Assembly: GCA_021324735.1 (NCBI GenBank)
Contig: JAJPIO010000009.1
Coordinates: forward strand, 248,001-312,000
From: Bacteroidota bacterium
Lineage (GTDB): Bacteria > Bacteroidota > Ignavibacteria > Palsa-1295
Reading direction: 5' to 3'
Length of the DNA stretch: 64,000 nt
The notes beneath the pieces were generated by a model that saw only the letters and a program-made list of their open reading frames with translations, did not search any database and was not told the origin of the DNA. The position numbers and the translations under genes are program-made. Below, one piece after another: positions 28,313-45,931 of this stretch. The first letter of the stretch is position 1; each line of letters begins with the position of its first letter.

Positions 28313-29350
28313 ATGAATTGCTCTCGTAATAAACACGTATTAGCGTCGGCCCTACTGGTTATTGCCTTCGTATTGCATTTTTCGGAAGCAATATTCGCAC
28401 AGGATCTCGACCCTTCTGCTCGTACCCATCTATCGGACGTTCTGAATAAGCCGCTAAGCCCGCGCGCGGCTGCGCTGGGTAACGCCTTCGTTGCCATGAA
28501 GGACGATCCGAATACACTCTTCAGCAATCCAGCGGCGATATCGAGCGTCGTCATAGATTCGGAACGGGAGAATGAGATAGCCGTCAGCTATTCACATTAC
28601 GTGCTCGACATTAACGAAGGAGCGGTCGTCTACGAACACCCCGTACCAGAGAGTTTTTTATTTGCCGGTGATTTTGCGGCTGGCGTTCAATACTTCTCGG
28701 GTGGTACTTCCACCGAAGCTACTTCGACGGGAGAACAACTGGGGACCTTCAGTACTGGTGATGTTGCACTACTTTTGGCATATTCAAGTACTGCATCGAA
28801 TGGCCTGCACTATGGTGTAGGCGCAAAGATCGTTAGTTCAAGCCTCGTTTCCGGGTCGTCCGTGCAAGATTATAGTGCGACCTGGATGGCGGCTGACCTG
28901 GGCCTTTATTATGAATGGACAAAGCAACTCATGACGTTCGGCATTTCGGCCTTAAACATAGGTACAGAGCTTTCGACGTATGCAGGTGTGCACGAAGCGG
29001 TTGGCCCCAACGTGCAATTTGGTGCCTCCAAAAAATTGGAACATATGCCGCTTACGCTTAGTCTCGCATTTCATAATATCACACGCGATCGTGAAGGCCA
29101 TAGCATTCTATATGCGTTGAATGATTTTTCAGTGGGCGCCGAATTTGTGATGGGCAAAGTAATTCGGTTACGATTCGGCTATGAGAACGAATTGCGCCAT
29201 GCATTGAATGTACCGACCGGTACTGGTTTTGCCGGATTCTCCGGAGGTGTTGGCCTGCATATCAAGCGTTACGATATTGACTTTGCAGTTAACGATCAAG
29301 GCCCTGATTTCCCATCTTTTATACGATTTGGATTGAGGACCGCATTTTAA
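28313..29350 (+). CDS. porQ: Type IX secretion system outer-membrane protein, PorQ/PorV family
   Basis: This outer-membrane barrel belongs to the FadL-like PorV/PorQ family; PorQ works in the T9SS attachment complex that processes and anchors cargo. A signal peptide (to about residue 30) is followed by the family signature RAAALGNAFVAMKDDPNTLF with SNPA (GNAF..M.DD.N..F.NPA). Alternating beta strands continue to the terminal FGLRTAF. The 345-residue length fits PorQ better than the longer PorV. It is not next to other T9SS genes, but the window encodes at least five proteins with T9SS sorting tails that would use this machinery. Confidence 0.87.
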   Translation: MNCSRNKHVLASALLVIAFVLHFSEAIFAQDLDPSARTHLSDVLNKPLSPRAAALGNAFVAMKDDPNTLFSNPAAISSVVIDSERENEIAVSYSHYVLDINEGAVVYEHPVPESFLFAGDFAAGVQYFSGGTSTEATSTGEQLGTFSTGDVALLLAYSSTASNGLHYGVGAKIVSSSLVSGSSVQDYSATWMAADLGLYYEWTKQLMTFGISALNIGTELSTYAGVHEAVGPNVQFGASKKLEHMPLTLSLAFHNITRDREGHSILYALNDFSVGAEFVMGKVIRLRFGYENELRHALNVPTGTGFAGFSGGVGLHIKRYDIDFAVNDQGPDFPSFIRFGLRTAF

Positions 29351-31122: not shown

Positions 31123-31764
31123 CTAAGGTAGACTTTCTGCTTTAGTAATAGCAGCCTTCAATTGAGCGGTGGTGGCGTAGCCTTCAAAGGTATCGGAGAT
31201 CTTTCGGCGGCGGGTGATAACGAACGTGGTCGGTACGACGTCGATACCGCCATAGGTGAAACCGAAATCGCGGCTGCCTACAAGTATTTGATACGGAATA
31301 GAGTGTGCCCGAGCAAACGAATCGAGTGGAGGAATGGCGTTGCCTTCGGTCTGCTTCTCCCGCATGGCTACAGCAATGATCAGGTAGTTCGTATCGCCCA
31401 GAGAACGGATACTATCGAGAACAGCAAGCTGGGACACCGCAGGTGCTGACCACGTACCAAAAAAGTTTAGAATTACCACTTTATTCCAGTACTCGTACAT
31501 TTCATGGACGGTACCAGTAGAATCCCACCAGGCAAAATTTGTTGCGCGGCTTGCCTGCGAAATACGATCCCAATATTTGATTCGAGAAATATTATGAAAA
31601 TAATTCGGACCGCCGCTATCAACGGCGACATTCGGAGGTACGAAGATCTGCTTCATCGTGCTGCTGGAGCACGAAGTAAGAGAGACGGTCAGCAGTAGAA
31701 CGATGCCGAATGTACTAAGCGAAGCGAGCTTAGCATAAAAGGTCCAGCACCATTTTCGCCCCAA
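31123..31764 (-). CDS. TlpA/thioredoxin-like lipoprotein lacking the catalytic cysteines
   Basis: This is a periplasm-facing lipoprotein with a TlpA-type thioredoxin fold but no redox active site. The signal ends in the lipobox LTSC (Cys32). The strand and active-site helix read VVILNFFGTWSAPA at about 96-109; the normal WCxxC has become WSAPA, so both Cys residues are lost. The cis-Pro loop is kept (DVVPTTFVI, Pro178). It is therefore likely a binding or sensing domain rather than a thiol reductase. The start is TTG at 31764, supported by GAGGAG six bases upstream inside the end of the anti-sigma gene. It is the third gene after an ECF sigma factor and its anti-sigma factor. Confidence 0.87.
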   Translation of the reverse strand: MGRKWCWTFYAKLASLSTFGIVLLLTVSLTSCSSSTMKQIFVPPNVAVDSGGPNYFHNISRIKYWDRISQASRATNFAWWDSTGTVHEMYEYWNKVVILNFFGTWSAPAVSQLAVLDSIRSLGDTNYLIIAVAMREKQTEGNAIPPLDSFARAHSIPYQILVGSRDFGFTYGGIDVVPTTFVITRRRKISDTFEGYATTAQLKAAITKAESLP

Positions 31765-31767
31765 GTG

Positions 31768-31995
31768 TTACTCCTCTTCGATGGCAGTAATGATCGAACG
31801 ATACGTGTCGAACGGTGTCTGAACGATCGGAACACGCGTTCGTACGATGCGGGATGTGAGTCGATCCATTTCGTATTCATATTGACACGTTGGGCAACTC
31901 GACAAATGATCTTCCACTTCGACCAACTCAACCGGACCAAGCTGCTCGTGATCGATCAGTGCAGCGGCGAGATCCTGAACTTGATTGCAATTCAC
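31768..31995 (-). CDS. Small zinc-finger anti-sigma factor (ZAS/zf-HC2)
   Basis: This 75-residue cytoplasmic protein probably binds and inhibits the ECF sigma factor encoded just upstream. The N-terminus MNCNQVQDLAAALIDHE and the zinc motif His30-x3-Cys34-x2-Cys37 (HLSSCPTC) are typical of the ZAS domain, in which zinc or thiol chemistry can control release of sigma. No TM segment follows, so it is soluble, like RsrA-type factors. The start codon is GTG at 31995. It overlaps nothing but ends three bases before the TTG of the thioredoxin-like lipoprotein gene. Confidence 0.9.
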   Translation of the reverse strand: MNCNQVQDLAAALIDHEQLGPVELVEVEDHLSSCPTCQYEYEMDRLTSRIVRTRVPIVQTPFDTYRSIITAIEEE

Positions 31996-32085
31996 AATAG
32001 TGTTACTATAAGTAGCTAAGCATCAGCCTCATTGGAACGGCGCTAAGTGAGAAAAAAGTGCTCCGAAAAGCGATGGAAATATCGG

Positions 32086-32817
32086 TTAAATTTTTCCTTC
32101 GAGCATGCGAGCAAGTGCGGCCCTAGCGCGATGCAAATGAACTTTTACCGTTCCCATCGGTAATTTAAGAACGCGAGCGATCTCTTCATACTCCATGTCC
32201 TCATTATGGCGCAAACGGATAATACGCCGATAATTCTCGGGCAAGTTCTCGATCGCCTGTTCGATGAGCATCGTTCGCTCGTCGGATAGCAATACATCGT
32301 CCGGCACCCAGGAGTTATCGCTGATCTCGTATTCTTTACCTTCATCTTCATGTCGCGCATTCGTCGATGCCGGCGGAGCGCTGATCGAGAACGCATTTAA
32401 TTTCCGTCGGCGAAGATAATCGATCGCATGGTTCGTCGCAATGCGATACAGCCAGGTCGAGAAGGCATAATCCTCGGAGTACGAATTGAGATGCAGCATT
32501 GCTTTCGTGAGCGCCTCCTGCACGAGGTCTTCGATCTCGTCAGAAGATGCGCTCCGCACCATAGGGCGAATCAACCGCTCTACACCGTGGCGATGACGCC
32601 GGATCAGTTCGTTGTATGCTAATTGATCGCCCGCGCGTGCTCGCTGGACCAGCAACTTGTCTTCCTGCTGCTTCTGCGACGAAGGCTTAGCTTCGGCTTT
32701 TTGTCCCGAAGCAGGGGAATCGGCAGAAGGCGAAGCGGCCGTCTCGCGATCCGATACCGTTTCGGGCGACTGCTTGGTAGATTCGTTACTGTTCGTCCTG
32801 CTGGCTTTGGGACTCAC
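32086..32817 (-). CDS. RNA polymerase sigma factor, ECF (sigma-70) family
   Basis: This is a group 4 sigma factor. An N-terminal extension of about 50 residues rich in Ser, Lys, Gln and Glu precedes region 2 (DEIEDLVQEALTKAMLHL and FSTWLYRIATNHAIDYLRRR) and region 4 (LPENYRRIIRLRHNEDMEY with EEIARVLKLPMGTVKVHLHRA). The start is GTG at 32817; the extension could also be read as starting later. The ZAS anti-sigma gene begins 90 bases after the stop. The aldolase gene ends only 20 bases upstream on the same strand, so read-through from central-metabolism genes is possible. Confidence 0.94.
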   Translation of the reverse strand: MSPKASRTNSNESTKQSPETVSDRETAASPSADSPASGQKAEAKPSSQKQQEDKLLVQRARAGDQLAYNELIRRHRHGVERLIRPMVRSASSDEIEDLVQEALTKAMLHLNSYSEDYAFSTWLYRIATNHAIDYLRRRKLNAFSISAPPASTNARHEDEGKEYEISDNSWVPDDVLLSDERTMLIEQAIENLPENYRRIIRLRHNEDMEYEEIARVLKLPMGTVKVHLHRARAALARMLEGKI

Positions 32818-32837: not shown

Positions 32838-33857
32838 TTAAATGACATCAATATTTTCTAAACCACTGTAGATGTCGTACCACGGTTTTGCATACCGGTC
32901 GATGACGGCGTTCAGCATTTCGATATTTTTAACACCGCGATCGGAGAGCCATGCTTCAAGTGCCGCCTGTCCCTTACTTCCGAATACAGGAACGCCATCC
33001 TGCCAGGTGGCACGGCCGCATAACACGCCGGAGAATGTGACACCGGATTGTCCCGCCAGCTCAAGCGTCTCGCGGAATACTTCGTCCGTAACACCCGCGC
33101 TGAGGTAAATAAATGGCTTCGAAGCAGCCTTTGAAGCAGTACGAAAATGCTCCATGGCCTCTTCCTTGGTATACGCCGATTCGGAGCCTCCAAATGATGA
33201 GGTGCCGGAAACATACTTCATGTTGATCGGTACTTCGACCTTCAACACATCGACGCCATATCGATCGTTCGAAAATTCTTTCATGTATGCCGCGACGTAT
33301 TTCGGTTTGAGCTTCGCGAATTCTACGCCTTTCTCGTCATACTTGTCGTCGTACGCAAGTACCTCGAGGAAGAACGGCCGGTCGATGGCGCGGCATTCCG
33401 CTCCTATTCTCTCGACAAAGGCATGCTTGATGCGATTAATGTGCTCTTCATCAAAGGGATTGTAGTAGAGCAGGATCTTAATGGCATCAGCGCCACTTTC
33501 CGCAAGCCGAAGAACGCTCCATTCTTCAAGCAGGTCCGGCAACCGGCCAGGTACCGTAGCATCATAACCGGTCTTCTCATACGAAAGAAGTACGCCCGTG
33601 CCTGGCGCACGAACCTCGAGAGAAGGCAAGCCATACTCGGGGTCCATTAACAAGGCAGTCGCATGCGGCGTCAGGATCTTTGTAACAGAAATTTTAAATT
33701 GGGTGAGATCTTCATTCGTGGCATCATGGCCCATCGCTTTGCCGATGCTCTTTTTTAGTGAACCGCGCTGGTCCATTGCCGCCGCCGCAATAACACCGCG
33801 CGAGTTCGCACATGCTTGAATGCCCTGAAATTTTCCTTTTGTGATTTTAACCTTCAT
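32838..33857 (-). CDS. lacD: Tagatose 1,6-diphosphate aldolase (LacD family, class I)
   Basis: This is a Schiff-base aldolase that splits ketohexose 1,6-bisphosphates into glyceraldehyde 3-phosphate and dihydroxyacetone phosphate. LacD-family enzymes act on tagatose 1,6-bisphosphate and can also take fructose 1,6-bisphosphate. Family blocks are IAAAAMDQRGSLKKS, LLMDPEYGLP, KILLYYNP, and DVLKVEVPINM with the Schiff-base Lys. Later blocks are FIYLSAGVTDEVF and FSGVLCGRATWQ. The start ATG at 33857 is chosen over an ORF extension to 33881. The neighbour rpe suggests use in core sugar-phosphate metabolism rather than lactose breakdown; that is inference. Confidence 0.9.
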   Translation of the reverse strand: MKVKITKGKFQGIQACANSRGVIAAAAMDQRGSLKKSIGKAMGHDATNEDLTQFKISVTKILTPHATALLMDPEYGLPSLEVRAPGTGVLLSYEKTGYDATVPGRLPDLLEEWSVLRLAESGADAIKILLYYNPFDEEHINRIKHAFVERIGAECRAIDRPFFLEVLAYDDKYDEKGVEFAKLKPKYVAAYMKEFSNDRYGVDVLKVEVPINMKYVSGTSSFGGSESAYTKEEAMEHFRTASKAASKPFIYLSAGVTDEVFRETLELAGQSGVTFSGVLCGRATWQDGVPVFGSKGQAALEAWLSDRGVKNIEMLNAVIDRYAKPWYDIYSGLENIDVI

Positions 33858-33908
33858 TCGTTTATGTTTGCCTAAATTCAATACAAGGGAGGAACGGTCA
33901 CCAAACGA

Positions 33909-40588: not shown

Positions 40589-41017
40589 TTAGGCAGCTAC
40601 TTTCGAGGTGCAGTGCTCGTTAAAAGCGTCCTTGATGATCTCGGCGAGCATCGGGGCGGGGCGGCCTTCGATCTGCCAGCGCTCGAGCATCCAGACGAGC
40701 TCGCCATCGCGGAGCAGGCCCATCGAGGGTGAACTGGGCGCAAAACCGGCGAAATAGCCACGCGCGCGGGCTACCGCTTCCACATCATTACCGGCAAAAG
40801 CGCTGATCATACGGTCCGGGAGGACGGCATTCTGGACGGCCATACCAAGGGCCGGGCGGGCGCTTCCGGCGGCGCAACCGCAGACCGAATTAATAAAAAT
40901 CAGTGCGGTCCCGGGCTGTTTGACCGCCGCATCGACATCCGCAGCGGTGCGGGCTTCCCCAATTCCCATACTCGTCACTTCCTCACGCATCGGCCGAATC
41001 ATATTCTCGTCGTACAT
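40589..41017 (-). CDS. Bacilliredoxin, BrxA/BrxB (YphP/YqiW) family
   Basis: This is a small cytoplasmic thioredoxin-fold protein that removes bacillithiol from oxidised protein cysteines in organisms that make bacillithiol. The family motif CGC is present at residues 46-48 in FINSVCGCAAGSARPAL, with MIRPMREEVTSMG at the N-terminus and the block APSSPSMGLLRDGELVWMLER. The length of 142 residues is normal. AAGGAG lies five bases before the ATG at 41017. Three short repeats occur in its upstream region (41027-41077). This suggests that the organism uses bacillithiol, as many Bacteroidota do. Confidence 0.92.
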   Translation of the reverse strand: MYDENMIRPMREEVTSMGIGEARTAADVDAAVKQPGTALIFINSVCGCAAGSARPALGMAVQNAVLPDRMISAFAGNDVEAVARARGYFAGFAPSSPSMGLLRDGELVWMLERWQIEGRPAPMLAEIIKDAFNEHCTSKVAA

Positions 41018-44194: not shown

Positions 44195-45337
44195 TTGGCG
44201 AAAAAGCCAACCCGGTCTCAAACCACGATTTCCGAAGAGGAGTATTCGGAGCACGAAAGCTCTCGCACGCACGAGCAGATCCGTCGCGCCCATGAGGACC
44301 GCAGCCGCGAGCGCCGCAAACTGACAAAAAAGCCGGAGCGGCAAACGAATGCAAGATCGCTTAGCCCAACGCCTCTTCTCGAGGGAGAAGAGAATGTCGG
44401 TCGCATCATTGCTACAGAAGGCGCTTTCTTTGTGCTGCGCCTGGAGGATGGCTCCGAGGTCCGGGCCAAAACCTACAAAGGTACTCGCACTGGTAACCCC
44501 AATGCAACACTCGTTGCCGTTGGTGATGAGGTCCGCGTTACGATCAACGAGCCGGGACACTCGATGATCGAGGAAGTCGTCACTCGCCGGACGAAACTCT
44601 CGCGGCATGCCGCAGGAAGACGCGATGCATTCGAACAAGTGGTCGTCGCTAATGTCGATGTCCTCGTTATCGTAGCAAGCGTTGGTGAGCCGAAGTTGCG
44701 TTCGGGTATTATCGACCGGTATGTTGTTGCCGGCCTGGAAGGTGGACTCGAAGTAGTTATTGCGATCAATAAGATCGATCTTGCTTCGCCCGAAGAAATG
44801 GATGAAGCATTATACTATCGGGACCTCTATCGGGAGATCGGTCACACCGTGGTGTTAGTCTCCGCCGAGGAGGGAACGGGCATGGCTCCGCTAAAAGAAG
44901 CGATCGAAGGAAAGACGAGCGTGTTCGCAGGGCATTCCGGTGTTGGCAAAAGCTCGCTGGTGAATGCGGTGATAGGCCGCGAGGTGGCGCGTGCCGGCAT
45001 CCTGCAAAAGAAATTTCGGCGCGGCGCCCACACGACCGCTTCCAGCACGCTCATCGAAGTGGACGGTATGCCGGGCACGTTCATCGCGGATACCCCGGGC
45101 GTTCGGGAGTTCTCGAACTACGAACTCGATTCCCATAATTTGAAGTTTGCATTCCACGAATTCTTACGCTTTGCGAATCAGTGTGCGATCACGAATTGCT
45201 CGCACATACACGAGCCGGGCTGCGCCGTTCGCGAGGCGGTGGAAGACGATAAGATCGCCATCGAACGGTACGCAAGTTACGAGAAACTGTTCGAAGAAGC
45301 AAAGCGGAGCGAGGTCAAACGTCTCGAAAAAAAATAA
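44195..45337 (+). CDS. rsgA: Ribosome small subunit-dependent GTPase A
   Basis: This is a circularly permuted GTPase that helps mature the 30S ribosomal subunit. An OB fold (about 65-125) is followed by the permuted G motifs: NKIDLA (G4) comes before GHSGVGKSSLVNAV (G1), HTTAS for G2 and DTPGVREF (G3). The zinc knuckle CAITNCSHIHEPGC follows near the end. The N-terminal 60 residues are an unusual highly charged extension rich in Glu, Arg and Lys. The TTG at 44195 is the first start in the frame; a later start would trim the extension. The FKBP gene begins 28 bases after the stop. Confidence 0.95.
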   Translation: MAKKPTRSQTTISEEEYSEHESSRTHEQIRRAHEDRSRERRKLTKKPERQTNARSLSPTPLLEGEENVGRIIATEGAFFVLRLEDGSEVRAKTYKGTRTGNPNATLVAVGDEVRVTINEPGHSMIEEVVTRRTKLSRHAAGRRDAFEQVVVANVDVLVIVASVGEPKLRSGIIDRYVVAGLEGGLEVVIAINKIDLASPEEMDEALYYRDLYREIGHTVVLVSAEEGTGMAPLKEAIEGKTSVFAGHSGVGKSSLVNAVIGREVARAGILQKKFRRGAHTTASSTLIEVDGMPGTFIADTPGVREFSNYELDSHNLKFAFHEFLRFANQCAITNCSHIHEPGCAVREAVEDDKIAIERYASYEKLFEEAKRSEVKRLEKK

Positions 45338-45364
45338 CCAAGTGTTTTCACTTAACTTAACTGT

Positions 45365-45931
45365 ATGAACGTTCTATATTTAGCAATCACAACTCTTGGA
45401 CTGGCCTTTGCAGGCTGCTCGTCGAAGTCGCAGAATGCAGCAACGGATACCTCCGTATCGCAGGCGACGTCGCAGCAGACCGAACAGACGGCTCAGCCGC
45501 AAACAACACAAACTAATCCCCAAGCTATGAATACTCAAGCGGGCGAGAATACTATGCCAGCGCCGGAAAAACACGGCGATACCGTGGTGTCACCATCCGG
45601 CCTGAAATATATCGACCTCGAAGTTGGCAAAGGACCTTCCCCGATGAAGGGACAAACGATCGTTGTAAACTATACGGGTAAATTAATGGATGGCACCACG
45701 TTCGATTCGAATGTGGATCCGAAATTTCATCATGTCCAGCCGTTCTCGACGGTGATCGGTGTCGGGCAGGTCATTCCAGGTTGGGATGAAGGAATGCTGA
45801 CGATGAAAGTCGGTGGCAAGCGCCGCCTTATCATTCCGGGCAACATGGCGTATGGTCCTCGCGGTATGCCGCCGGTCATTCCGCCGAATGCGACGCTCAT
45901 TTTTGACGTCGAGCTACTGAAGGTTCAGTGA
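45365..45931 (+). CDS. FKBP-type peptidyl-prolyl isomerase, lipoprotein
   Basis: This is an envelope foldase that catalyses cis-trans isomerisation of proline bonds. The signal ends in the lipobox FAGC (Cys18). A Gln/Thr-rich linker (about 20-70) reaches a single FKBP domain (about 78-188) with [48 protein letters not shown] and [12 protein letters not shown]. Active-site residues such as Tyr, Asp and Trp are kept. It follows rsgA on the same strand. Its last seven bases overlap the end of the convergent lipoprotein gene. Confidence 0.95.

Follow-up and report, generated by a model that had tools for sequence, protein, structure and literature searches.

The small anti-sigma gene and the lipoprotein gene coupled to it within the 64,000-nucleotide stretch of Bacteroidota DNA analyzed here (herein referred to as the window) are probably the relocated, reduced remnant of an operon, in which the anti-sigma factor, a soluble ZAS protein, would be the truncated orphan anti-sigma of a distant SigH-like sigma factor. 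The window belongs to a 3.55-Mb assembly of 19 contigs (G000), from a lineage of environmental bacteria. A preliminary description had placed an ECF sigma factor, a ZAS anti-sigma factor and a TlpA-like lipoprotein at 31123-32817 as a single module, and the three genes do lie there, on the minus strand (coordinates are those of the window):

32086-32817, minus strand: ECF sigma factor, RpoE/SigW-like, with an N-terminal extension of ~45 residues
31768-31995, minus strand: soluble ZAS anti-sigma factor, 75 aa, GTG start at 31995 and stop ending at 31768
31771-31777, minus strand: Shine-Dalgarno AGAGGAG, within the final ZAS codons
31123-31764, minus strand: Cys-free TlpA/ResA-fold lipoprotein, TTG start
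31669-31680, minus strand: lipobox LTS-C, with C32 the sole cysteine of the predicted mature protein and Ser at +2
31438-31452, minus strand: WSAPA replacing the WCxxC active site, residues 105-109
31231-31233, minus strand: cis-Pro codon (P178), in the invariant loop GG(I/V)D(A/V)(V/I)P
44195-45931, plus strand: rsgA-like GTPase and FKBP-like lipoprotein genes, ~12 kb off and on the opposite strand from the three genes

The window sigma passes the Pfam models Sigma70_r2 (8.9e-16) and r4_2 (3.1e-17), matches RpoE at 5e-31 and is separated from ZAS by 90 nt, with no overlap. The spacing between ZAS and TlpA is much as first described, namely a strong Shine-Dalgarno inside the end of the anti-sigma gene and a start three bases on: AGAGGAG is present there and the TTG start of TlpA lies 3 nt past the ZAS stop, while in the congeners G001 and G002 a TAATG overlaps the ZAS stop. 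Consensus promoters and terminators within the window occur in numbers near the shuffled expectation.

Comparison of gene order among relatives divides the proposed module. ZAS and TlpA are tightly coupled in every genome of the genus that has ZAS, and as a conserved pair they stand; the link to the sigma does not. The order sigma–ZAS–TlpA is found in G000, G005 and G006, but in three other genomes of the genus (G001, G002 and G003) and in one of the sister genus (G009; this genome and G010 are only 67% complete) the immediate upstream neighbors of the pair are rsgA and FKBP. These four genomes have precisely what the preliminary description had named as contrary to a module, a lipoprotein gene unlinked from the sigma gene, and the linkage expected of a cis-encoded sigma/anti-sigma/sensor module is not conserved. 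In G001–G003 the sigma orthologue is on another contig without ZAS, flanked by the aldolase gene upstream and a glycosyltransferase-like gene downstream. In G004, also of the same genus, TlpA comes straight after the sigma, with a 6-nt gap (L040:9758-11200), and a search across that genome found no ZAS orthologue. The far neighbor of the locus (the homologue of window positions 28313-29350) is the same in G001, G002, G003, G005, G006 and the window, and a single change in gene order suffices on the genus tree, which is weakly resolved. Across the class the window-type sigma is an orphan that adjoins ZAS–TlpA only in the window's subclade. No conserved promoter shared by the two gene arrangements was seen upstream of ZAS.

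Two further genes of the window deserve mention. A tagatose-1,6-bisphosphate aldolase-like gene (32838-33881) is a conserved neighbor of the RpoE/SigW-like sigma, also in G001–G003 and G008, and a bacilliredoxin-like small protein with a CGC motif (40589-41017; named by eye) is encoded close to the rsgA–FKBP block.

The ZAS protein passes the zf-HC2 model (1.1e-7; 32.3 bits, cut-off 22.2), and its Hx3Cx2C motif, N-terminal Cys ligand and four helices place it among the class I zinc anti-sigma domains (ASDs). Its Zn ligands (C3, H30, C34 and C37) and D15 are invariant among orthologues, which within the genus share 53–79% identity with the window protein. In a single-sequence model (pLDDT 72.6) the predicted helices span residues 3-14, 21-33, 35-52 and 62-74; the chain stops at anti-sigma helix 4 and has no membrane segment. 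ZAS thus keeps the inhibitory domain and could hold a sigma, and cannot itself sense the envelope. We infer that it works like RsrA, and withhold the name because neither the score against the RsrA equivalog TIGR03988 (26.8 bits, below the cut-off of 62.5) nor gene linkage warrants it. In a PDB profile search RsiW (1.1e-4) came slightly ahead of RsrA (6.6e-4), so the ZAS sequence alone cannot name its sigma. The soluble ZAS of G007 (L120) was considered as an orthologue and rejected, as it has its own, different sigma.

The genomic context of related ASDs elsewhere in the class points to a candidate. Other families encode a different sigma (~196–250 aa) followed by a 270–300-aa anti-sigma made up of an N-terminal ASD, a single hydrophobic segment and a C-terminal extracytoplasmic domain, and a TlpA with intact WCxxC is third in that operon in 16 genomes of 7 families, several with 4-nt overlaps. 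The sigma most resembles actinobacterial SigH/SigR, the ECF12 type, and is here called SigH-like: TIGR02947 is the best of all models at 198 bits (cut-off 251.6), and SigH of M. tuberculosis is matched in the PDB at 4.9e-49. When 61 genomes were searched reciprocally with a profile (A4) built from the soluble ZASs, the top match outside the family lay directly behind the SigH-like sigma in all 21 genomes at E <= 2e-7 and in 25 of 29 at E <= 1e-4; the best matches were never beside the window-type sigma, which is elsewhere in those genomes.

The window genome has its own SigH-like sigma (G000:C13:23994-24539, L087), on another contig than ZAS–TlpA. Throughout the window's family this sigma is an orphan, with no ASD beside it in any of 13 genomes (L087 and L084–L096, from 5 genera), and it is nearly invariant. 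The seven genomes with ZAS all share one core sequence; there are 3 changes in the core in ZAS-less G004, and in the remaining five family members without ZAS an N-to-T change falls at a mapped ASD-contact position (contact positions between sigma and ASD were mapped from PMC7406223). That the presence of ZAS tracks the core sequence of this sigma is suggestive only, as the changes are few and the link is confounded by phylogeny except in G004.

At other loci the SigH-like sigma has other neighbors. In family f2 (L166, L174, L181 and L188) it precedes an 85–113-aa ASD-like ORF without Zn ligands, possibly a second, independent soluble anti-sigma. In family f13 (L170, L177, L185 and L190) a membrane ASD-like protein lacking Zn ligands comes next, then a TlpA with CPPC, and that lineage can seemingly do without the zinc site. 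In family f18 (L225 and L228) and at L163 (G017) TlpA follows the sigma directly, with no ASD between them.

The sigma gene next to ZAS must also be weighed as a partner. ZAS may have been recruited to control the adjacent RpoE/SigW-like sigma, as a new cis pair in G000, G005 and G006; the genes share a strand, their gaps are about 66–90 nt and their order is kept in three diverged species, and the ZAS profile also resembles RsiW, the partner of SigW. We nevertheless judge such recruitment unlikely: at none of its anti-sigma-contact positions does the window sigma distinguish genomes with the link from those without it, G004 kept the sigma and lost ZAS, and elsewhere in the class no orthologue of this sigma adjoins a ZAS-profile match. 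D15 of the ASD would face an Arg in the neighboring sigma, which accords with recruitment; as a means of telling the two sigmas apart the mapped contacts failed for helix 1, and the D15/Arg pairing fits both. The most likely client of ZAS would be the orphan SigH-like sigma, bound in trans. Counting against this partner, five ZAS-less family members conserve the SigH-like sigma, which can therefore live without ZAS.

The lipoprotein matches AhpC-TSA (9.4e-6) and NCBIfam ResA (3.4e-10, below its cut-off); its sequence matches in the PDB are ResA (3.6e-6), as are the top Foldseek matches (1.5e-10) of its AlphaFold model (pLDDT 77.6). With these matches, the LTSC lipobox and an intact cis-Pro loop (VPTTF), the TlpA fold marks first read from the sequence are borne out, as is WSAPA in place of WCxxC: of the features of TlpA/ResA oxidoreductases, the protein has the thioredoxin fold with cis-Pro and lacks the active-site motif. 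Whether this loss is conserved had been put forward as a check, and all eight orthologues (seven from the genus, the window included, and one from the sister genus) are Cys-less. The six other orthologues of the genus are 55–62% identical to the window protein, with WSSTS, WSPPS, WSVPA, WSPPA, WSPVA or WSPPS at the active site, and that of G009 is 29% identical, with SSVPA. None of the eight mature proteins has a cysteine beyond the lipidated one (signal peptides may hold others). This recurrence in eight of eight rules out sequencing or assembly error, or decay in a single genome, as the source of the loss. Among 391 genomes of the class the eight proteins are set apart (E <= 3e-67 vs 6e-28 for the next), and the next-nearest TlpAs keep CxxC in all 21 readable cases. 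In the TlpA tree the Cys-less proteins form one clade (95/94), nested in a part (99/91) that holds sigma-linked TlpAs.

Both genes of the pair are under purifying selection where dS is measurable. For the genome pair G001/G002, dN is 0.165 and dS 2.99 in TlpA, and dN is 0.121 and dS 0.86 in ZAS; dS of other genome pairs is largely saturated, and selection is readable only where dS can be estimated. These values bear on the idea that ZAS and TlpA are both relics in decay, without any part in regulation. In its favor, it can be said that the TM/periplasmic domain and the active site are both gone and that ZAS was lost outright in G004 and was not found in other genera of the family. Given the low dN/dS, the invariance of the Zn ligands, D15 and the cis-Pro loop, and the identity to the window that both proteins retain within the genus, we consider this quite improbable.

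Less probable still is that the redox-dead TlpA, as a sensor in the envelope or as a binding partner, signals via ZAS to the neighboring sigma, as the preliminary description had suggested. The idea draws on the conserved loss of cysteines and on the tight coupling in each ZAS-bearing genome of the genus, but is mechanically weak: a 75-residue soluble ZAS without a membrane segment and a predicted exported lipoprotein are in different compartments, which makes direct signaling between them unlikely. Moreover, the sigma link is missing in half of the genomes, and G004 retains sigma–TlpA without ZAS. We regard TlpA, predicted to be exported and non-catalytic, as an output made by co-translation, and its conserved cis-Pro face suggests a binding or chaperoning role.

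We therefore return to the displaced operon remnant, whose history may have been as follows. The ancestor would have been an operon, widespread in the class, of a SigH/SigR-like (ECF12-like) sigma, a membrane-anchored zinc anti-sigma and a TlpA with CxxC, and comparison shows all three genes in relatives, with the 270–300-aa anti-sigma and an intact WCxxC TlpA. In two genera the anti-sigma is down to its ASD (helices 1–4 and all four Zn ligands) and TlpA to its lipidated cysteine, with purifying selection maintained on both genes. The pair has parted from the SigH-like sigma, itself an orphan in the family, its core identical where ZAS is present. In the window's subclade, gene order suggests a rearrangement that brought the pair to its place after a class-wide, unrelated ECF sigma, most simply one inversion in which sigma–aldolase replaced FKBP–rsgA beside ZAS. 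In the cytoplasm the soluble ZAS would now control the SigH-like sigma in trans, in the manner of an RsrA-like Zn/thiol switch, and would no longer receive an envelope signal; the translationally coupled TlpA would be a non-catalytic envelope protein that makes no contact with ZAS and whose cis-Pro face may serve as a binding or holdase surface. We advance more tentatively, at somewhat less than even chances, the broader proposal that in one lineage an envelope-sensing ECF12-like system turned cytosolic, in which the anti-sigma shed its membrane part together with the cysteines of TlpA, an unlinked, near-invariant SigH-like sigma came to be controlled in trans and TlpA took on a new non-catalytic envelope role.

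According to a published survey, Bacteroidetes ECF12s have no ASDI beside them and may rely on orphan ASDIs (PMC7406223, from which the ASD domain layout used here is also taken), and soluble anti-sigmas are thought to have been truncated from membrane-bound ones (PMC8103513). The locus fits both the truncation and the orphan ASDs; to these it adds that TlpA lost its cysteines as well, and a literature search found no paper that connects TlpA with operons of ECF anti-sigmas in this group. In ZAS there is a specific candidate for such an orphan ASD, together with its probable sigma, for Bacteroidota ECF12s that lack a linked anti-sigma, and the locus maps a route from membrane-bound to soluble anti-sigma, for which G004, with its ASD lost, is a natural experiment. 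It also warns that gene neighborhood can point to the wrong sigma, and provides a clean case of a TlpA without any redox chemistry that is nevertheless kept under selection.

Among known systems, SigR/SigH–RsrA of Actinobacteria (ECF12) resembles the proposed one in its soluble ZAS-type anti-sigma with C, H, C and C as Zn ligands and in its sigma, the sigma proposed here being closest to M. tuberculosis SigH and TIGR02947. It differs in that here the genes for sigma and anti-sigma are unlinked (C13 carries the SigH-like sigma, and no ASD adjoins it), ZAS stops at helix 4 and falls below the RsrA equivalog cut-off, and a Cys-free lipoprotein is co-translated with ZAS. The operons of sigma, membrane ZAS and TlpA(CxxC) in other families of the class (for example L045, L047 and L048) share with the window a homologous ASD, near-zero ZAS–TlpA spacing and a TlpA subfamily with an N-V-S segment; in the window, however, the sigma is elsewhere, the anti-sigma is without its membrane and periplasmic part and TlpA is without redox cysteines. 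RsiW–SigW has a class I ASD with the Zn motif, and RsiW is the nearest PDB profile match of ZAS, but RsiW is membrane-bound and cis-linked whereas ZAS is soluble. Finally, the ResA/TlpA thiol-disulfide oxidoreductases have the same fold, lipoprotein or membrane anchor and cis-Pro loop as the window TlpA, which, unlike them, has no catalytic cysteine and is the natural counterpart of the engineered ResA C74A/C77A (PDB 2h1g).
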